DNA of 12,701 nt from Dehalococcoidia bacterium. Its GTDB lineage: Bacteria > Chloroflexota > Dehalococcoidia > Dehalococcoidales > UBA5760. The notes beneath the pieces were generated by a model, which saw nothing but the letters and a program-made list of their open reading frames with translations, was not told the origin of the DNA and did no database searches. Of the stretch, positions 43 to 8,961 are shown piece by piece. The number at the start of each line of letters is the position of its first letter. Position 1 is the stretch's first letter. The stretch lies in NCBI GenBank assembly GCA_030639215.1, contig DAOWDD010000003.1, forward strand, positions 1 through 12,701, written 5' to 3'. The position numbers were made by a program, and so were the translations under genes.

Positions 43-825
43 TTACTTCGCCGGAATACCGCCATCAATCATAAAGTCTGCCCCGGTAACGAATTTAGAC
101 TCATCGGAAGCGAGGTAGAGGACGGCGTAGGCAATATCAATCGGCTCTCCGACATGCCCGATGGGACAGTACTTCTCGGCTAGCTGCGCCAGGTACTGCT
201 CGCTGGTCAGTCCGTAGTCTCTAGCCTCCCCGTCGAGCATCGGGGTGTAGATGTAGCCGGGGTAGACGGCATTAACCCGGATGTTATATCCGGCCTCACA
301 GCAATGAATCGCCGCTGTCTTGGTAATGTTCCTCACCGCACCCTTAGCGGCATTATAGGCGAAAAAGAACGGCTCGTTAATATGGACCTCAGTAGATGAG
401 ATGTTCACTATCGAGCCCGGCTCACCACTGCCCTTCATCGTCTCAATCCCGTATTTAGTACCCAGGAAGACCCCGGTTGAATTGATGTCCATTACCGCAT
501 TCCAGTCAGCCAGGGAGGTCTCTTCCACATTCTTCACCACGGAAATGCCGGCATTATTGACGACAATGTTGAGCTTACCGTATTTCTTGATGACCCCAGT
601 AATTACCCTTTTCCAATCATCCTCTTTCGACACATCAAGCTGAAGAAAAATAGCCTCTCCGCCGACCTTTCTTATCTCTTCAGCCAGCGCCTGTCCTTCC
701 TCCACCTTCTTCCTGGTCGTAATGGCAACCTTAGCCCCTTCCTTAGCCAGCAAACGGGCATCAGCTTCTCCGAGGCCGGCGGCACCACCGGTTACCAGGG
801 CAACCTTACCATCCACTCTTCCCAT
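43..825 (-). CDS. SDR-family NAD(P)-dependent oxidoreductase (3' gene of mtbB cluster)
   Basis: A 260-residue classical short-chain dehydrogenase/reductase, a soluble Rossmann-fold enzyme that oxidises an alcohol or reduces a ketone; the substrate cannot be read from sequence. Visible motifs are the cofactor-binding TGGAAGLG (residues 12-19), NNAG (90-93), the structural Asn in MDIN (115), and the catalytic triad Ser144, Tyr157 and Lys161 (YNAAK). The second beta strand ends in TTR rather than an acidic residue, which suggests NADP(H) over NAD(H), an inference. The C-terminal VTGADFMIDGG is the usual SDR end. The ATG start has an AAGGAG-type ribosome site about ten bases upstream, and the stop is TAA. 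It lies 151 bases downstream of the methyltransferase on the same strand and may be its co-transcribed partner. Length is normal for the family. Family assignment is firm, substrate unknown. Confidence 0.93.
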   Translation of the reverse strand: MGRVDGKVALVTGGAAGLGEADARLLAKEGAKVAITTRKKVEEGQALAEEIRKVGGEAIFLQLDVSKEDDWKRVITGVIKKYGKLNIVVNNAGISVVKNVEETSLADWNAVMDINSTGVFLGTKYGIETMKGSGEPGSIVNISSTEVHINEPFFFAYNAAKGAVRNITKTAAIHCCEAGYNIRVNAVYPGYIYTPMLDGEARDYGLTSEQYLAQLAEKYCPIGHVGEPIDIAYAVLYLASDESKFVTGADFMIDGGIPAK

Positions 826-877
826 CTTCTCGTACTCCTTTCTATATTCCTCGTTTATTATGTACCGTTACAATACA

Positions 878-929
878 AATGGCTACCAAGCGACCGGGCT
901 AATACCAGACAAAGCACTTGGTAACCATT
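878..929 (-). other. 13-bp stem-loop in the mtbB to SDR gap
   Basis: Arms 878-890 and 917-929 are inverted copies. In minus-strand RNA they give 13 consecutive base pairs, with a single G-U wobble and all others Watson-Crick, around a 26-nt loop that could fold further (CUGG/CCGG). Read from the plus strand the same position is a C-A mismatch, so the structure fits minus-strand RNA better. There is no U-run after it, so it is not a classical intrinsic terminator. It may protect or separate the transcript segments of the methyltransferase and the downstream dehydrogenase; that role is inference. The rest of the 826-976 gap shows an 8-base C run (944-951) and the SDR ribosome site. Confidence 0.6.
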
Positions 930-976
930 CGATTTTCAATGTTCCCCCCCCGGGTTCCTCACCTCGCTCAGCTCAG

Positions 977-2404
977 TTATGCACTGGCGGGGGTAAACAT
1001 CCCTGTTTTCTGCTTGAACTTGTTCACCGAGTTGATCTCGATATCCAACAACTTGGCGATATTGAACTTAGCCTCCATCCCCTTGGGGTGACCGGGTAGC
1101 TGAGCGACACAACCCAGCCCGAGCTCTTCTCTTACCACAGTCATCACCGTAGAGTCGGTCAGGTCAAGAACAGAGACTTTCAACTTATCGGCTACGTACT
1201 TCTTTGCATCCTTGGTCTTCATGCCACGGGCCATCTGGACACGCGCCACCAGGTCTCCGGCGGTACGTGCTCCACCCATACCCGAGGCGATAGAGTGAGT
1301 AATGCACATACCCAATATATCGCCCACACCTACCTACAACCCGTCCACCCTGGATATTTCCGCAACGGCCGTCGAGCCCCGCGATACCGCATCCGAGGCG
1401 ATAATATCGGTCAACGGACTGCCGCCGACCCCCATTCCCATATTGGGATGCACCGGTATTTCGGCAGCCTCCATACAGGACTTTAGCATAGTACAGAGAC
1501 GGGCTACATTCCAGGCACAGGAGCGCCTGGTGTTGGTATTTACCACCGGCCCGTAGACGGTAACCCCGGCCTTAGCCGCTAATTTGACCTGCTGATGCGG
1601 CCACAGGCCAGCCAAGCGTACCCCATCATAGGTCAGTGCGCCGTGTATTCCCAGAATGAACTCTGCCGCCATTCCCATCTCGATGAACATGTTGGGGTAC
1701 TTTTTCTTCAGTATCTCGCAAGCCCGCAGGGTGGACAGAAAGTCTACATCACCAAATCCACCTGTGGTATCGAAATTGACACCATCAGCACCCGCTTCAT
1801 ACATGCCACTGGCGACGTAGACCATATCCCTGGTCGCCGCCTCCATCATCTCCTCACTGGCCTCCCTGGCCTCCTCTATCTTGCCCTCCGTGAGCAGCGT
1901 CGTCGGGTTACGGAAGGGACCATCGGGTCGGGTATAGGAACCCAGATTGGGCATCGCTCCGTAGTAGATGGGGATAATGGTGGACAATAACGTCTGCTCC
2001 ATCTCCTGCTGCTCGTCAGCCAGGATGTTTTTTGACGGCTTAAAGCTGTAGTCAACATGGCCGAAGTCCATGGTATCGGAGCCCAACACCCGCTCGTAAA
2101 TCTCGGTGCAAGTCCTCCGGCCAATGTCCAGTCCAAGGCCGGCCCCACCCGACACCCCCACATTGAGCTTGATGGTGCCGCCATCGTGGCTGAGCAGGAT
2201 TTCATTGCCCGGCTCGACACTGATGAACCGTCGAGGAGAAGCGTAAATATCGAAGAGGTGCTTCAGTTCATCGTCCGAGAGAGGTGAACCCCCACACCTA
2301 TCGGCAGCATCATGAGCCCCCTCTTCAATATCCTTCCGGAGTTCGGTCTCGGTCATCTCACGGAGATAACCATCCCCGAAACGCTGCATGGTATTTGCCA
2401 TCAT
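977..2404 (-). CDS. mtbB: Dimethylamine:corrinoid methyltransferase MtbB-like, with in-frame amber read as pyrrolysine
   Basis: A 475-residue member of the MtbB family (Dimeth_Pyl), which in methanogens moves a methyl group from dimethylamine to a cobalt corrinoid protein. One in-frame TAG (codon 357; codon 356 from the second ATG) interrupts it, at the site where methanogen MtbB has pyrrolysine. The family blocks seen before the amber include GADGVNFDTTG, LAGLWPHQQ, a VNTNT-x4-AWN segment, NMGMGVGG and the closing VDGL. After the amber, VGVGD, then ASGMGG and RTAGDLVAR, continue in the same frame to a TAA stop. An excellent GGAGG lies six bases before the first of two tandem ATG codons. Conventional gene calling would give a truncated 356-residue protein and a spurious 116-residue ORF starting at a GTG at 1327. 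No corrinoid protein or pyl gene is in the window. Family assignment is very secure. Pyrrolysine insertion is inferred from position and conservation, and a nonfunctional nonsense allele is the alternative. The true substrate could differ from dimethylamine. Confidence 0.9.
1334..1336 (-). other. In-frame UAG recoding site (putative pyrrolysine codon)
   Basis: The plus strand reads CTA, hence TAG on the coding strand. The residues around it read VDGL-[amber]-VGVGD, matching the pyrrolysine context known for MtbB (VDG-I-O-IGVGD in the methanogen enzyme as I recall it). The frame is open for 356 codons before and 118 sense codons after. Pyrrolysine is known to be needed in this family for activating the methylamine substrate. 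Decoding would need pylT tRNA and PylS elsewhere in the genome. Confidence 0.8.
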
Positions 2405-2440
2405 TAATTACCTCCTTCTTTAACTATCATCACTAATCTG

Positions 2441-3229
2441 CTAAAGCTGGTCTTCCGGCCACATTGATAGCGGCCCCATATTGGTGCCACCATCGACACG
2501 CCAGGTAACCCCGGAAACCCAACTGGCGCGGTCGGAAGCAAGGAACAGGGCCGTATTAGCGATGTCAATCGGCTCACCCATCCGGCCCAGCGCTATCTCA
2601 GCCGCCGTCACCGCATCATCAATACCATAGGACGCCATCATCTCTGTGTGCACACAACCAGGGGCAATCGCATTTACCCTTACGTTATAGCGACCCCACT
2701 CAAAAGCCAGCGTGTTGGTCAGGTGACGTACACCAATCTTAGCACAATTATAGGCTACCTGGTTCGGAATCGGGTTAAAGGCATCGGTAGAAGCTATGTT
2801 GATAATGCTACCCTTCCTTCGCTTAATCATCCCCCTGGCAACTGCCTGGTTCATCAAGAAGGTTCCTTTGAGGTTGGTATCAATGACAATGTCCCAGTCC
2901 TCTTCGGAAAAATCAATCGACGGATTCACCCGCAGTACGGCAGCAGCGTTAGCCAGGGTGTCGACATCACCCAGCTCAGCCTCCACCTTCTGGATCAAGT
3001 TGGTGACGGAGGCCTTATCCGAAATATTGAACTGAATGGCCAATGCCTGTCGCCCGAGCTTCCGGATTTCTTCCGCGGTATTATTTAGTTCATCACCGGC
3101 AACGTAATCACAGACGGCTACATCCGCCCCAGCCTCAGCGAAGAGGAGGGCAATCGCCCGACCGATACCGCGCCTGCTGCCGGTGACAATAGCTACCTTC
3201 CCTTCCAGGGATAAACATGGTACTGCCAA
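2441..3229 (-). CDS. SDR-family oxidoreductase (5' gene of mtbB cluster)
   Basis: A 262-residue classical short-chain dehydrogenase. It has the nucleotide-binding TGSRRGIG (residues 16-23), an acidic Asp41 at the end of the second beta strand (VAVCD) that favours NAD(H), Asn119 in DTN, and the catalytic Ser147, Tyr160 and Lys164 (YNCAK). The usual NNAG motif is changed to NAAA (94-97). The start is TTG at 3227-3229; it is chosen because a strong AAGGAGG lies eight bases upstream and no ATG fits before the Rossmann motif. The stop is TAG, followed by a TAA seven codons later. The gene ends 36 bases before mtbB, whose own ribosome site lies in that gap, so the two are very likely one transcript. 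It is similar in layout to the other SDR of the cluster but has different cofactor signals. Substrate unknown; it might handle a product or precursor of the methylated compound. Confidence 0.92.
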   Translation of the reverse strand: MAVPCLSLEGKVAIVTGSRRGIGRAIALLFAEAGADVAVCDYVAGDELNNTAEEIRKLGRQALAIQFNISDKASVTNLIQKVEAELGDVDTLANAAAVLRVNPSIDFSEEDWDIVIDTNLKGTFLMNQAVARGMIKRRKGSIINIASTDAFNPIPNQVAYNCAKIGVRHLTNTLAFEWGRYNVRVNAIAPGCVHTEMMASYGIDDAVTAAEIALGRMGEPIDIANTALFLASDRASWVSGVTWRVDGGTNMGPLSMWPEDQL

Positions 3230-3335
3230 TCTTCTATCCTCCTTACTCTAATATCTTTTTGCTTTAGTACCTAAAATCGTTATTCCCAGTACCATCATCA
3301 GATGGTTATCGCACTGGATTGACATAGGTTATTCT

Positions 3336-3364
3336 ATTATATTTCTATTTTACAAGAAGGTCTA
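3336..3364 (-). promoter_or_regulatory. Putative promoter of the SDR-mtbB-SDR cluster
   Basis: On the minus strand a TAGACC (3364-3359; four of six bases of the -35 consensus) is followed after 17 bases by a perfect TATAAT (3341-3336). Predicted RNA start is near 3329, giving an approximately 100-base leader before the TTG start. It is a sequence match only. Confidence 0.4.
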
Positions 3365-3396
3365 TCACATATACTATACATTCTTGCTCAAGGATT

Positions 3397-3414
3397 TTTG
3401 TGATAACTCACAAA
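3397..3414. promoter_or_regulatory. Perfect dyad TTTGTGA-N4-TCACAAA, candidate operator
   Basis: Two perfect 7-bp inverted arms (3397-3403 and 3408-3414) flank four bases (TAAC). The half-site TGTGA resembles a CRP-type half-site, but the spacing is two bases shorter than the CRP consensus. Its centre lies about 68 bp upstream of the predicted response-regulator start and about 77 bp upstream of the divergent promoter, so one protein could act on both. The binding protein is unknown. Confidence 0.4.
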
Positions 3415-3438
3415 CAATCATATTGATACAACTGTTAC

Positions 3439-3467
3439 TTGACACAATTATTATCAAGCATTATAGT
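3439..3467 (+). promoter_or_regulatory. Sigma-70-like promoter of the response regulator
   Basis: A perfect TTGACA (3439-3444) is followed after exactly 17 bases by TATAGT (3462-3467, five of six). The predicted start is near 3474, leaving a short leader before the ATG at 3511. TTGATA (3423-3428) and TATCAA (3452-3457) form inverted half-sites around the -35 box. This is the strongest promoter match in the window. Confidence 0.65.
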
Positions 3468-3510
3468 GAACCTATATAGGATGAGGTAACCAATTCTGGC
3501 GAGAGGCACT

Positions 3511-4185
3511 ATGGAGAAAATAAGGGTACTGGTCGCTGATGACCATCCGTTATTTCGGGAGGGCTTGAGCCGTCTCTTTCAGGACGAGAAGGACCTGGAG
3601 TGTGTCGCAACGGCAGAGGATGGCGAAGAAGCGGTCAGGCTAACGCAGGAGCTTTGCCCGGATGTCGCCATACTCGATGTTAACATGCCTAAGCTTACCG
3701 GTATTGATGCCGCCAGGCAGATTAAGGAGACTTGTCCGAAGACCGCTGTCCTGATGCTCAGCGCCTACAAGTACAACCACTACGTAATCACCTCGATACA
3801 GGCTGGTGTGGACGGCTATTTACTCAAGAATACTCAGCGCGGCGAACTGATAGAGGCAATTCGTATGATTCACTCCGGTAAGGGCGTCTTTAACCTCGAG
3901 GCTATCAGTAAGGTTCTGTGTAAACTGACCTCCGGGAAAGACAGCGCTAAATCAGGCCCCAACGAGCTGCGCAACCGTGAACTGGAGGTACTCAAGCTAG
4001 CCGCCCGCGGAATGAGCAACAAACAGATTTCCAGTGAGCTTAGTATCACTGATAACACGGTTGGTACCCACCTGGTCAGTGTCTTCAGGAAGCTGGGAGT
4101 CGAGTCACGTACCGAAGCCGCCCTTTATGCCTTAAAGGAAGGACTGATTAGCACCGACGACATCGCCAGTAAGAAAGAAACATAA
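3511..4185 (+). CDS. NarL/FixJ-family response regulator
   Basis: A 224-residue DNA-binding response regulator. The receiver domain (about residues 1-122) shows the acidic pair Asp10-Asp11, the phosphoacceptor Asp56 in ILDVNMP, the switch Ser84 and Lys106 in YLLKN. The LuxR-type helix-turn-helix domain (about 150-215) shows RELEVLKLAARGMSNKQIS and ITDNTVGTHLVSVFRKLGV. Phosphorylation is expected to promote dimerisation and DNA binding. The ATG at 3511 follows a GAGAGG ribosome site four bases upstream, and the stop is TAA. The kinase gene follows 95 bases later on the same strand, making a regulator-first pair. It is divergent from the mtbB cluster across a shared 281-bp control region, so it might regulate that cluster, which is inference. 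It is complete and intact. Confidence 0.94.
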   Translation: MEKIRVLVADDHPLFREGLSRLFQDEKDLECVATAEDGEEAVRLTQELCPDVAILDVNMPKLTGIDAARQIKETCPKTAVLMLSAYKYNHYVITSIQAGVDGYLLKNTQRGELIEAIRMIHSGKGVFNLEAISKVLCKLTSGKDSAKSGPNELRNRELEVLKLAARGMSNKQISSELSITDNTVGTHLVSVFRKLGVESRTEAALYALKEGLISTDDIASKKET

Positions 4186-4280
4186 CCGGATATCTACCTT
4201 ACTTCCTTACCCCCAACACCACCCTTGTTTTCATCCCGTCTACTTTTTAAAACGGTGTGCTTCATTGAAAGAGTGAGAAA

Positions 4281-6203
4281 ATGCAAAGCAAGAAAAAAGA
4301 AGAACAGGCTATAGAGAGATTCATAGGACCAAGTAAGCAAAATCATAGTGAAAACGATGCATCCTGTTCTAAGGTGCCGGCGAGAGAAGATAAATTCCAT
4401 TTGCTAGTATCGGACATCCCAGACGTATTATGGAAGATAGATAGAAACAACTATATTATCTATATAAGCGAAAACATAGAAGCAATCAGCGGGTATACTC
4501 CGGATGAAGAATATGAGATGGGGTCCTATCTGAACTGGATCGATAGGATTCACCCTGACGACATGAAAGAATATGTAACCGCTTGCGATGCACTGTTCGA
4601 AAAGGATAGACCTTTCAACATCGAATACCGCTTGAGGAGAAAGGACGGGGAGTGGGTCTGGATACATGATAGAGCCGTGGTTACCTACGACGAGGATGGT
4701 AAGAAGTATGCGAGTGGCCTGCTTTCCGACATCACGGAACGTAAACAGGTGGAAGAGGAAACGAAAAAGCTGAAGGAAAAATACGAGAGCGTGATTAAGC
4801 ATATCCCCGATACCATATATTCTGGCCTACCCGATGAGACATGCACGATGACCTTTGTATCAGAGAGATATAGTGAGTGGACCGGATACTCCCCGGAAGA
4901 CTTCTATCAAGACCCCTGGGTATGGCCAAAAACAGTCCACCCCGAAGATAGGGCCAGTGCCATGGAGGCCTATGTCAGGGCCTGCGAAAGCAAGACTGAG
5001 TATAACCACGAGTACCGAATAGTCCACAAAGACACCGGGCAGGTACGCTGGGTCAGAGACCATGGTGTGCCAGTCATTGATGAAAAGGGAACACTGATAT
5101 TGATTGATGGCATAATAATCGACATCACCGAGCACAAGCAGGTCGAAGAAGCACTGCAGAAGAGTGAAGAATTCAGTTCCAAGTTGCTGAATAATTCCCC
5201 CAATCCGATAGTGGTTGTCAATTCAGATTTAGCAGTAGGGTATGTAAATCCGGCGATGGAGAGGATGACCGGGTTTTCCTCTAGAGGGCTTCTGGGTAAA
5301 AAGCCCCCCTACCCCTGGTGGACGGAAGAGATCCGACACAAAGTCAGTAAAGACCTGCAGGAAGCCTTGAGTGAGGGAATAAGCAAAAGGGAGAGACTCT
5401 TTCAAAAGAGGAATGGAGAGCGGTTCTGGGTTGAGGTAACCGCGGCACCGATAACACACAATGACGGCTCCATGTACCTCCTGGTCAACTGGACTAACAT
5501 AACCGAGCAGAAGCGGCTGAGAGACGATATGCAGTTCTACATCAGAGAGATAACCAGGGCCCAAGAACAAGAGCGCAAGAGAGTCTCCCGCGAGCTACAC
5601 GATGAGACAGCCCAGTCCCTAGCCGACCTTTGTACTGATGTTGATATGACCATAATGAAAGAACAGTTATCGGAAAAGGTTGTCCGGCGGCTGGAGCAGC
5701 TAAGGCTTAAGATTGATAGCATGCTGGAAGAGGTGCGTCGCTTCAGCCACGAGTTACGGCCGGGGCTTTTAGACCAGTTCGGACTGATACCATCGCTAGA
5801 ATCCCTGACCGCGGATGTGAATACAGAGGAAAAGCTAAGCTGCCGTCTCGAGGTAACCGGCTTCGAGCAACGGCTATCGTCCGAAGCTGAGGCGCTACTG
5901 TTCCGTATTACTCAAGAGGCGCTGCGGAATATCAGGAAACATGCCAAAGCGACCGGGGCTATCGTTAGAGTTGATTTCAGCCGGTGTAAGGTCAGACTCA
6001 GTATCACAGACAATGGTATCGGCTTTAAAGTGCCAGAAATCCTGGGTGGCTTTGCCCGCAGGGGCAAACTGGGTCTAATAGGTATGCAGGAACGAGCTCA
6101 CCTCCTTAACGGCAGCTTCAAAGTGAAATCGACTGCTGGTAAGGGCACCACGATAACAGCGGAGATACCGACGCAACCAAATCACAGCACTCGCTCCGGC
6201 TGA
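4281..6203 (+). CDS. Cytoplasmic multi-PAS sensor histidine kinase (HisKA_3 type)
   Basis: A 640-residue kinase that should phosphorylate the preceding NarL-type regulator. It has three PAS domains: about residues 38-155 and 168-288, both ending in DITE-x-KQVEE of the PAS_3/PAC kind, and about 298-412, ending in NITEQKR. A short helical linker and a HisKA_3 dimerisation domain follow, with phosphoacceptor His440 in SRELHDETAQSL. The ATPase domain (about 530-632) has Asn550 in the N box, DNGIGF at 577-582 and GKLGLIGMQER at 595-605. No transmembrane segment or signal peptide is visible, so it senses a cytoplasmic or diffusible signal. The ligand is not evident. The stop is TGA; it is convergent with mutS, leaving 44 bases between the genes without an evident terminator. 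Confidence 0.93.
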   Translation: MQSKKKEEQAIERFIGPSKQNHSENDASCSKVPAREDKFHLLVSDIPDVLWKIDRNNYIIYISENIEAISGYTPDEEYEMGSYLNWIDRIHPDDMKEYVTACDALFEKDRPFNIEYRLRRKDGEWVWIHDRAVVTYDEDGKKYASGLLSDITERKQVEEETKKLKEKYESVIKHIPDTIYSGLPDETCTMTFVSERYSEWTGYSPEDFYQDPWVWPKTVHPEDRASAMEAYVRACESKTEYNHEYRIVHKDTGQVRWVRDHGVPVIDEKGTLILIDGIIIDITEHKQVEEALQKSEEFSSKLLNNSPNPIVVVNSDLAVGYVNPAMERMTGFSSRGLLGKKPPYPWWTEEIRHKVSKDLQEALSEGISKRERLFQKRNGERFWVEVTAAPITHNDGSMYLLVNWTNITEQKRLRDDMQFYIREITRAQEQERKRVSRELHDETAQSLADLCTDVDMTIMKEQLSEKVVRRLEQLRLKIDSMLEEVRRFSHELRPGLLDQFGLIPSLESLTADVNTEEKLSCRLEVTGFEQRLSSEAEALLFRITQEALRNIRKHAKATGAIVRVDFSRCKVRLSITDNGIGFKVPEILGGFARRGKLGLIGMQERAHLLNGSFKVKSTAGKGTTITAEIPTQPNHSTRSG

Positions 6204-6247
6204 AGTGGTTCCCGAAAAAGCCGCTCTATTCGCACAATAGTCCTCCC

Positions 6248-8839
6248 CTACCCCTCCCGCGCCTTCTTTTGCAGCTCGTAGAGCTTGTGGATTGCCTCCA
6301 GTGGCGTCAGCGAGTTTATGTCAAGTCCTTCCAGTTCCTCCACCACCGGTGATTTTTGCCCGAAGAATGATATCTGCTGGGCCACCTCTTTCTTCCGCTT
6401 AGGGCTTTCCTGTGCTCCTGTCTTTCGATTGCTATCCCCTTCCATCTCCTCCAGCACTTCATTAGCCCGCTGCACCACCGATCTGGGTAAGCCCGCCAGT
6501 TGAGCGACATGGATACCATAGCTCTTATCAACTCCACCCGGTACAATCCGGTATAAGAAGACCACCCTCCCGCCCTCTTCGGTTACCAACACGTTAAAGT
6601 TTTTCACCCGGGGTAGAACACCGGCCAGTTCCACCAGTTCATGGTAATGAGTGGCAAAGAGGGTCTTGGCACCTAGCCGGGAATTGTTATGGATATACTC
6701 ACAAACCGCCCGGGCAATCGAAAGTCCATCATAGGTACTGGTGCCTCGCCCGATTTCATCAAGGATAATCAGCGAGCGCGGCGTGGCATTATTCAGGATA
6801 TTGGCTGTCTCCACCATTTCCACCATAAAGGTGGACTGACCAGCGGCGATATCTTCCCCGGCGCCGATGCGGGTAAATATACGGTCAACCAGGCCGATGG
6901 TAGCAGAATCGGCGGGAACAAAGCTTCCTATCTGCGCCAGAAGAACGCTTAAGGCGACCTGCCTTAAGTAGGTTGACTTACCTGACATATTGGGGCCGGT
7001 AAGGACGATAAGCTGGGTGTCATCATTGGAGAGATAGGTATCATTGGGCACAAAGCTACTTGCCGGCAGGCCTCTCTCTACTACCGGGTGACGCCCCCCG
7101 TTAATGACTATTTCACTGTCAGTGGTTAACCTAGGCCGGACATAGCCATAATGCACCGCTACCTCGGCCAGGCTGGAGAAAACATCAATGTTCGCCAGGG
7201 TGCCGGCAACCGTCAGGATGCGCTCGCTGACAGCAGCTACCTGGCAGCATACCCGATGAAAGATATCCGACTCAAGCTCACTAATCCTGTCACGGGCATT
7301 CAGAATCAGGGACTCATACTCCTTTAGTTCAGGAGTGAAAAAGCGCTCACCACCGACCAGTGTCTGCTTTCTAATGTAACTCTGGGGCACCTGGCCAAGG
7401 TTAGCCTTGGACACCTCAATATAGTAACCGAAAACCCTATTGAAGCCGACCTTGAGTGATTTAATCCCGGTCTTTTCGCGTTCTTGACGCTCCAGATTAG
7501 CCAGATACTGCTTGGCATTCTTAGCTACCAGACGGAGGCTATCCAGCTCCTCGGAAAACCCCCTTCGCACTACGCCGCCATCACTCAAAGACGAGGAGGG
7601 TGACTCTTCCATCGCCTCTGTAATTAAATCAACAACATCCTGACGGGGCTTGAGCTCGTCCCTAAGCCAGCCGATGGTACTACCTTCATTACCGGCGTCG
7701 ATTACTTCGATGAGTTTGGGAAGAACCTCCAGACTGCGCTTCAGGCTGATTAACTCGCGGGGGGTAGCTACGTTACTCCTCACCCGATTAATCAACCGTT
7801 CCAGGTCAGCCACCTTATCAAGCCAGGAAATCGTCTGGCTGCGAGCCAAGGTGTTATCGAAGAACCAGGTGATGGCATCCTGCCTCTTGACTAGTTCCGT
7901 TATGTCAAGTAAGGGCTGCCCTAGCCAGCGCTTCAGCAGCCGGCTCCCCATCGGTGTTCTAGTCAGGTCAATCACCGAGAGCAGGGAGCCATCGGCTCCC
8001 TGCAGACGACCTGAGTGGAACAGCTCCAGATTTTTCTGGGTTTGCGCATCAAGCGCCATAAACGAATCCGTAGAATAGGTGGCAAGCCGGGTTAGCTGTC
8101 CCAGGATCCCCTTCTGCGTTTCTCGAATATAGCTAATGATAGCGCCGGCAGCTCTTACCGCCAGGGGGAGGTGACTGCAGCCATAGCCATCAAGGGCGGC
8201 CACTCCAAAATGCTTAAGCAATGTCTGCTGGGCCCCATGCAGCTCAAACCAGTAATCCTCAAGGCGGCTTACCGGAGATGTTAATTCCAAATCAGATAAC
8301 TGAGAACTATCAGCTGTAATAACCTCCGATGCCTTGAGTCGCTCCAGTTCCGCATTAACCCGCCCAAGAGGTAGCTGGGTAAGTGCAAAATCACTGGTGG
8401 TGATATCAACATAGGCAATACCCGCCGCCTCATCACCCAGAACAAGGCTGACCAGATAGTTATTGGCTCTACTATTAAGCAGGCCGGGCTCAATAACCGT
8501 TCCCGGTGTTACCACCCGCACCACGTCACGTTCAATAATACCCTTACTCTCACCGGGCTTGGTCACCTGCTCACAGATAGCAACCTTATAGCCACGATTA
8601 ATAAGCCTGGCCAGATAGTTATCCAGGGCATGATAGGGAATACCGGCCATAGGCACCCGGTGCCCCTTACCCATCTCTCTTGAGGTCAGGACAATATCCA
8701 ACTCCCGGGAGGTAAGCTCGGCATCCTTATCGAAGGTCTCATAGAAATCCCCCAGGCGGAAGAGGACAATAGCCTGGGGGTAATCGCGCTTTATCCTGAG
8801 GTACTGCTGCCGAACAGGGGTTAGCCCTTCTTTTGCCAT
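6248..8839 (-). CDS. mutS: DNA mismatch repair protein MutS
   Basis: An 863-residue MutS that binds mismatches and small loops and signals repair through ATP-driven clamp movement. The mismatch-reading Phe-Tyr-Glu (FYETF) is near residue 32. The connector, lever and clamp regions follow, with a FNRVFGYYIEVSK segment near 467-478. The ATPase has Walker A GPNMSGKST (about 615-623), Walker B LIILDEIGRGTST (about 690-702) and the ATHYHEL segment (about 729-735). A C-terminal LTPLEAIHKLYELQ block matches the usual end of bacterial MutS1. I chose the ATG at 8839; a TTG lies immediately before it and a TAG stop two codons further up. The ribosome site is weak. The stop is TAG, with a TGA after 21 further sense codons. 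mutL is not in the window. Length and motifs are standard, so it is probably functional. Confidence 0.97.
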   Translation of the reverse strand: MAKEGLTPVRQQYLRIKRDYPQAIVLFRLGDFYETFDKDAELTSRELDIVLTSREMGKGHRVPMAGIPYHALDNYLARLINRGYKVAICEQVTKPGESKGIIERDVVRVVTPGTVIEPGLLNSRANNYLVSLVLGDEAAGIAYVDITTSDFALTQLPLGRVNAELERLKASEVITADSSQLSDLELTSPVSRLEDYWFELHGAQQTLLKHFGVAALDGYGCSHLPLAVRAAGAIISYIRETQKGILGQLTRLATYSTDSFMALDAQTQKNLELFHSGRLQGADGSLLSVIDLTRTPMGSRLLKRWLGQPLLDITELVKRQDAITWFFDNTLARSQTISWLDKVADLERLINRVRSNVATPRELISLKRSLEVLPKLIEVIDAGNEGSTIGWLRDELKPRQDVVDLITEAMEESPSSSLSDGGVVRRGFSEELDSLRLVAKNAKQYLANLERQEREKTGIKSLKVGFNRVFGYYIEVSKANLGQVPQSYIRKQTLVGGERFFTPELKEYESLILNARDRISELESDIFHRVCCQVAAVSERILTVAGTLANIDVFSSLAEVAVHYGYVRPRLTTDSEIVINGGRHPVVERGLPASSFVPNDTYLSNDDTQLIVLTGPNMSGKSTYLRQVALSVLLAQIGSFVPADSATIGLVDRIFTRIGAGEDIAAGQSTFMVEMVETANILNNATPRSLIILDEIGRGTSTYDGLSIARAVCEYIHNNSRLGAKTLFATHYHELVELAGVLPRVKNFNVLVTEEGGRVVFLYRIVPGGVDKSYGIHVAQLAGLPRSVVQRANEVLEEMEGDSNRKTGAQESPKRKKEVAQQISFFGQKSPVVEELEGLDINSLTPLEAIHKLYELQKKAREG

Positions 8840-8961
8840 CAAAGCCTATTCTACTAGAATTTGCGGCGAAAAAGAAGGGTGATTTTAGCCTACCTTACCC
8901 CCATTTCACCTGGTTTACCTTCCGGGTCAAGAAGATGAATTGGACCTGTGCCGCAGACCAA

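Follow-up and report, generated by a model that had tools for sequence, protein, structure and literature searches.

The window analyzed here, a stretch of 12,701 nucleotides, carries on its minus strand a gene (mtbB, 977–2404) that, as judged from its sequence and genomic context, very probably encodes a pyrrolysine-containing [dimethylamine--corrinoid protein] Co-methyltransferase (MtbB) of an uncultured Dehalococcoidales bacterium; we put the probability of this reading at roughly 0.9. The predicted product has 475 residues, including one amber codon. The sole internal stop in the frame running from 2404 to 977 is a TAG (1334–1336, minus strand), flanked by ...SRVDGL and VGVGD.... The first-pass annotation of this DNA had proposed that this lone in-frame TAG separates two MtbB-like halves and had put it at residue 356/357 of 475. 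Both proposals stand: the frame reading and the column shared among mtbB copies place the codon at residue 357, the pyrrolysine column, and the read-through product matches both TIGR02368 (523.6 bits; cut-off 369.1) and PF09505 (656.3 bits) over nearly its full length; for TIGR02368, residues 4–466 are aligned over profile positions 4–465 of 466. A ribosome-binding-site-like stretch, AAGGAGGT (2410–2417, minus strand), can be read from the sequence 5 bases ahead of the ATG at 2404.

The same genome contains a second amber mtbB copy, described below, and a comparison of the two genes gave 101/77/189 differences at codon positions 1/2/3 before the TAG (355 codons) and 29/23/60 after it (114 codons). 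The excess of third-position differences on both sides indicates that the coding pattern carries on beyond the amber. We treat it as confirmed, at the level of gene structure, that 977–2404 (minus strand) is one predicted gene, which standard annotation splits in two, and the amber is most likely read as pyrrolysine. No PDB chain matched MtbB by sequence at E ≤ 0.001, so the enzyme seemingly has no close relative of solved structure, and no mtbB relative was found among the viral contigs scanned. The Rfam model PYLIS_2 (RF02509) matches 1237–1336 on the minus strand, starting at the TAG and lying inside the coding sequence (64.2 bits; gathering score 36). PYLIS_3, however, gives a hit above its gathering score of 38 (51.1 bits) in an mttB relative of this genome that has no amber (L060:2264–2363). 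The PYLIS models thus track conserved coding sequence and are not specific to pyrrolysine genes, and the match in the window does not prove pyrrolysine and is weak evidence for it.

The window corresponds to contig 83 of a genome bin that totals 758,661 bases over 174 contigs and is 75.2% complete and 3.0% contaminated. The bin holds three amber methyltransferase genes, two mtbB and one mttB. The second mtbB (529.6 bits) lies on contig C32 (L001, 3055 bases, examined whole), where the order is the 3′ part of pylC, pylT, pylSn, mtbB, and the start of a methyltransferase gene. The tRNA-Pyl gene, with anticodon CUA, is at L001:897–968, and its cloverleaf folds with −28.2 kcal/mol. PylSn scores 126.4 bits (cut-off 51.15), and the pylC part, of which the N-terminal portion is lost at the contig end, scores 300.3 bits (cut-off 248.3). 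At the other end of C32, a fragmentary gene start of 43 residues resembles methyltetrahydrofolate methyltransferases with 50.2 bits, under the cut-off. The amber mttB is located on a separate contig, C69 (L059), and scores 701 bits (cut-off 525).

A search of the genome for pyl genes, which the first-pass annotation had suggested, was thus successful for tRNA-Pyl(CUA), pylSn, and the 3′ part of pylC, but not for pylSc, pylB, and pylD. Profile searches gave no match to any of these three in the 758,661 assembled bases of this approximately 75% complete bin and none over the cut-off in eight relatives. On Natroniella and Spirochaetota proteins, these profiles give 287 and 336 (PylSc), 475 and 466 (PylB), and 260 and 252 (PylD), well over the cut-offs, which makes insufficient sensitivity an unlikely cause. 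With a bin of this completeness, split over 174 contigs, the pyl machinery is demonstrated in part only. We infer that one lost region would account for all three genes, since a quarter of the genome is absent and pyl genes are usually clustered.

The first-pass annotation had also held the trait to be rare in this lineage, and the survey agrees. We found mtbB in 1 of 156 Dehalococcoidales genomes, namely this one, and in none of the other 155; in a sample of 400 genomes from the Chloroflexota, it was again found in this genome and in none of the other 399. PylSn likewise occurs in this genome only (1 of the 156 of the order). Many of the sampled genomes are incomplete: at least 90% completeness with at most 5% contamination is reached by 52 of the 156 order genomes and by 283 of the 400 phylum genomes.

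This isolation within the order could mean that mtbB is a transferred passenger in a cell that has no working pyrrolysine system, with C32 mis-binned or the cassette decayed, and that only a 356-residue product is made. The failure to find pylSc, pylB, and pylD in the bin would fit such a situation, as would the common use of TAG as a stop in this genome and the nature of C32 itself, which is short, carries no housekeeping gene, and is assigned to the genome by binning and by a tetranucleotide correlation of 0.629 with the rest of the genome sample. This correlation, however, falls within the span (0.55–0.75) covered by five 3-kb pieces from the congener G006, and 3-kb pieces of eight named loci from other organisms reach 0.396 at most. 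Within the genome, C32 is at the low end, with 2 of 12 contigs of 2.5 to 4.5 kb that have defined values scoring lower; as the correlation is undefined for some short contigs, single values were used and no median. The passenger scenario is also at odds with the third amber gene, mttB, which lies on a contig of its own next to a gene for an aminotransferase that shares 82% identity with one from the congener G008 (a genome with 6% contamination); in the other seven congeners, the best counterparts of this aminotransferase show 58% identity or less. Moreover, mtbB downstream of the TAG is still under coding constraint, and of the 120 PylC relatives listed, a single one bears an organism name, that of a Dehalococcoidia MAG (P0304, 64% identical). 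Two others, P0242 and P0243, are 94% identical to the PylC of the bin, P0243 being encoded on a contig of 77,515 bases. All in all, we consider an inert, transferred mtbB unlikely and prefer a pyrrolysine-containing MtbB.

The chromosomal setting of mtbB is clear from its neighbors. A short-chain dehydrogenase gene (SDR2, 2441–3229, minus strand; PF13561) precedes mtbB in the same orientation, with 36 bases between the two. Divergent from SDR2–mtbB are genes for a LuxR-type response regulator (3511–4185, plus strand; PF00072 and PF00196) and for a histidine kinase that has PAS and HisKA_3/HATPase domain matches (4281–6203, plus strand). A guess from their position is that the kinase and the response regulator might control the adjoining SDR2–mtbB pair. 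The flanks are conserved: mutS (6248–8842, minus strand), whose counterpart in G006 is 87% identical, anchors the contig to the Dehalococcoidales, and SDR1 (43–825, minus strand) encodes a protein 89.6% and 88.5% identical to those of G006 and G001. Both congeners have the order phoU–pit–gmk–usp–mutS–SDR1, with about 0.14 kb from mutS to SDR1, and lack the segment in between (861–6218; 5358 bases in the comparison with G006), which comprises mtbB, SDR2, the response regulator gene, and the kinase gene. Window positions 861–6218 are opposite 72 bases in G006, and 861–6247 are opposite 102 bases in G001. The adjacency of mutS and SDR1 in these two genomes shows that the 5.4-kb mtbB segment belongs to the chromosome; on this comparison of sequences, the segment represents either a gain in the Dehalococcoidales lineage of the window or a loss in G006 and G001.

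The mutS stretches compared came from six relatives, and the empty site was seen in two of the six (G006 and G001). SDR1 was not found beside MutS in the four other fetched stretches (L055–L058), two of which (L056 and L057) end within 1.7 kb of mutS. Orthologues of MutS are present in seven of the eight other genomes of the genus, at 79 to 87% identity and with two of them partial, and a MutS relative named as coming from a Dehalococcoidales bacterium, P0159, is 79% identical. Contamination as the source of the window is ruled out, as the products of phoU, pit, gmk, usp, and mutS are 81 to 91% identical to, and encoded in the same order as, those of G006 and G001. An archaeal origin of the contig is ruled out too, its relatives being Chloroflexota and Dehalococcoidales. 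In a tree of the MtbB part before the amber (65 rows, including 48 taken from the best 120 of 1415 relatives), both copies of the bin group with bacterial and organism-unlabelled rows, apart from the archaeal ones, at a fork with support 90/85, which is below the starred level. Downstream of mutS in G003 (L055:4700–5680), a second copy of the 3′ end of mutS lies about 0.8 kb further on, the two flanking a small gene; together with the window segment, this duplication suggests that the stretch after mutS is insertion-prone.

UAG is an ordinary stop in this genome. Among 85 ORFs on 37 contigs (165,448 bases), TAG ends 27, TAA 29, and TGA 29; these ORFs are non-overlapping, of at least 150 codons, chosen by length, and uncurated, and the three amber genes were excluded. 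The same choice of ORFs in six stretches from relatives gave TAG ends for 26 of 69, so there is no clear depletion of TAG stops in the present genome. Inspection by eye of ORFs with long downstream open frames yielded none that was judged a further amber gene, some being same-frame neighbors. In PMC9723677, TAG stops are given as less than 6% in pyrrolysine-containing archaea and as 21% in Sifarchaeia, the latter figure being said to match that of pyrrolysine-encoding bacteria, and the way in which pyrrolysine-decoding cells avoid misreading UAG stops is called unresolved. Compared with these figures, the TAG share found here is at the high end, which favors conditional or context-bound decoding, and the frequency of TAG as an ordinary stop makes unrestricted amber suppression unlikely. 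Hence, pyrrolysine decoding in this genome is probably conditional or context-dependent.

A bolder proposal is that the cell combines a working pyrrolysine code, serving two mtbB genes and one mttB gene, with UAG as the end of about one-third of its genes and with a pyl set that is rearranged and scattered. We hold this tentatively, at somewhat less than even odds. If true, the cell would have to restrict decoding through the context of the message or through control of pyl expression, in which the two-component system next to mtbB may take part; a scarcity of UAG stops, which serves this end in methanogens, would not be the means. With its many ordinary TAG stops, the genome is useful for the question of how UAG stops and UAG pyrrolysine codons are discriminated.

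Another way to account for the amber would be its reading as an ordinary amino acid by some other suppressor tRNA, or the separate synthesis of the two halves. A GTG start is indeed available shortly downstream, at 1327, but the C-terminal half has no ribosome-binding site visible on an unsystematic look. The bin contains tRNA-Pyl(CUA) and pylSn, and there is no other tRNA on the 37 sampled contigs (165,448 of 758,661 bases), on which ARAGORN found none and on which Rfam gathering scores gave none at all. Leucine at the amber column of one MtbB relative, P0050, would be in keeping with decoding as a standard residue; even so, we judge suppression by another tRNA, or production as two pieces, very improbable next to insertion of pyrrolysine. 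P0050 is a full-length relative of 466 residues, 48% identical, on a long tree branch, and its leucine was seen at the protein level only; it may be an MtbB that lacks pyrrolysine or may have been translated with another code. The number of tRNAs on the 37 contigs is below expectation, and the six stretches from relatives likewise contain no tRNA.

Close relatives of the window MtbB were sought in one genome per GTDB species, which gave 12 named loci with 14 mtbB copies. The 14th copy, L027, is cut by a contig end and was left out of the site count. All 13 copies that cover the site, from 11 of the 12 named loci, have TAG at the same alignment column, and a sense codon, which the first-pass annotation had regarded as telling against pyrrolysine, was seen in none of these 13. 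The residues flanking the amber in these named copies follow the pattern DG[LVI]-O-VG.GD; the earlier remark that the residues bordering the amber fit the family is supported by this alignment. The window MtbB is 62% identical to the copy of Natroniella sulfidigena. A protein search of 5.8 billion proteins returned 1415 MtbB relatives, and among the best 120 of these, 118 have DG[LVI], the residues preceding the amber, as their C-terminal end (protein calls only). P0017, from a Desulfobacterales MAG and 77% identical, ends earlier than DG[LVI] and is the only organism-named MtbB among the best 120 of 1415. Another of the relatives, P0002, reaches 92% identity. Standard gene calling thus seems to cut MtbB enzymes as a rule, with 118 of the best 120 relatives stopping before the amber. 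A pseudogene created by an ordinary nonsense mutation or a sequencing error, the origin that one TAG in an otherwise intact frame might suggest, is hardly credible against a TAG column that is shared by all 13 named copies covering the site and by the bin's other copy, 118 of the best 120 of 1415 relatives that stop right before it, and a conserved C-terminal half of MtbB. A chance TAG is likewise ruled out by its identical position in 13 of 13 copies. Two Desulfohalobiaceae MAGs, L021 and L022, have two amber mtbB copies each, the starts being separated by 1.4 and 1.7 kb.

In the preferred reading of a pyrrolysine-containing MtbB, PylSn and an unassembled PylSc would form a split PylRS that charges tRNA-Pyl, as expected from the family, and the ribosome would insert pyrrolysine at the UAG of mtbB. 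By analogy with its family, the full-length MtbB would demethylate dimethylamine with a corrinoid protein as methyl acceptor, and tetrahydrofolate would probably be the next carrier, loaded by a methyltetrahydrofolate methyltransferase like that whose start is on C32. Methylamine use is thereby suggested for this uncultured relative of Dehalococcoides, which belongs to a group whose best-known trait is organohalide respiration.

The window gene shares with the mtbB genes of methanogens and of pyrrolysine-using bacteria (Natroniella, Spirochaetota, and Desulfohalobiaceae, L016–L022) the full-length match, the amber column, and the flanking residues. Unlike those loci, it is set in a Dehalococcoidales chromosome, on a contig without a pyl gene, and has an SDR gene and a two-component system as neighbors. 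For bacterial pyl cassettes, PMC3941956 gives the orders pylT–pylSc–pylB–pylC–pylD–pylSn and pylSn–pylSc–pylB–pylC–pylD; L020 resembles the former and L016 the latter. C32 is like these cassettes in encoding tRNA-Pyl, PylC, and a separate PylSn, but its order is pylC–pylT–pylSn–mtbB–methyltransferase, with no space for pylD between pylC and pylSn.

Pyrrolysine in other bacteria is well documented (PMC7593587 and PMC8318568). In Mukai et al. 2017 (PMC5424206), Chloroflexi-type pylSc and pylSn are reported from metagenomes, and a Dehalococcoides lineage is described that has both PylRS and SepRS, with stress on their co-occurrence. The Chloroflexi lineage with pylSn and pylSc in that paper belongs to the same phylum as the window genome. 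No SepRS was found over the cut-off in this approximately 75% complete bin or in eight relatives (nine genomes of the family). Judging by titles and abstract openings among the matches listed, there is no other report on pyrrolysine in Chloroflexi, Chloroflexota, or Dehalococcoid bacteria and none on a Dehalococcoidia methylamine methyltransferase. With Chloroflexi-type pylSc and pylSn already published (PMC5424206), pyrrolysine in the Chloroflexota is not categorically new. The present data tie pyrrolysine decoding to a specific Dehalococcoidales chromosome, for which the empty site in two congeners indicates that the mtbB segment was either gained or lost.

Matches to the MttB family are more widespread, occurring in 50 of the 156 genomes of the order. 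The non-pyrrolysine, MttB/MtgB-like family of the Dehalococcoidales has a member in the window genome, on contig C84, which is included in this count. In 13 aligned non-amber proteins of the family, the pyrrolysine column holds Met in nine and another residue in four. Among the matches listed, a TAG was flagged in two mttB genes, and it is at the pyrrolysine column only in that of C69. The other, in G008, was rejected as an amber gene: its TAG is the first codon of the match, and it has Met at the pyrrolysine column. Two further mttB matches were flagged with one TAA, near the match start. The C84 genes have an operon-like arrangement (L060:1301–4412) of a non-amber MttB relative (470 bits, not reaching the cut-off of 525 of the trimethylamine model), a methyltetrahydrofolate methyltransferase (292.5 bits; cut-off 259), and a corrinoid protein that is nearest to MtgC (210 bits, not reaching the cut-off of 370). 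They are perhaps a set of the glycine-betaine type, residing in the same genome.
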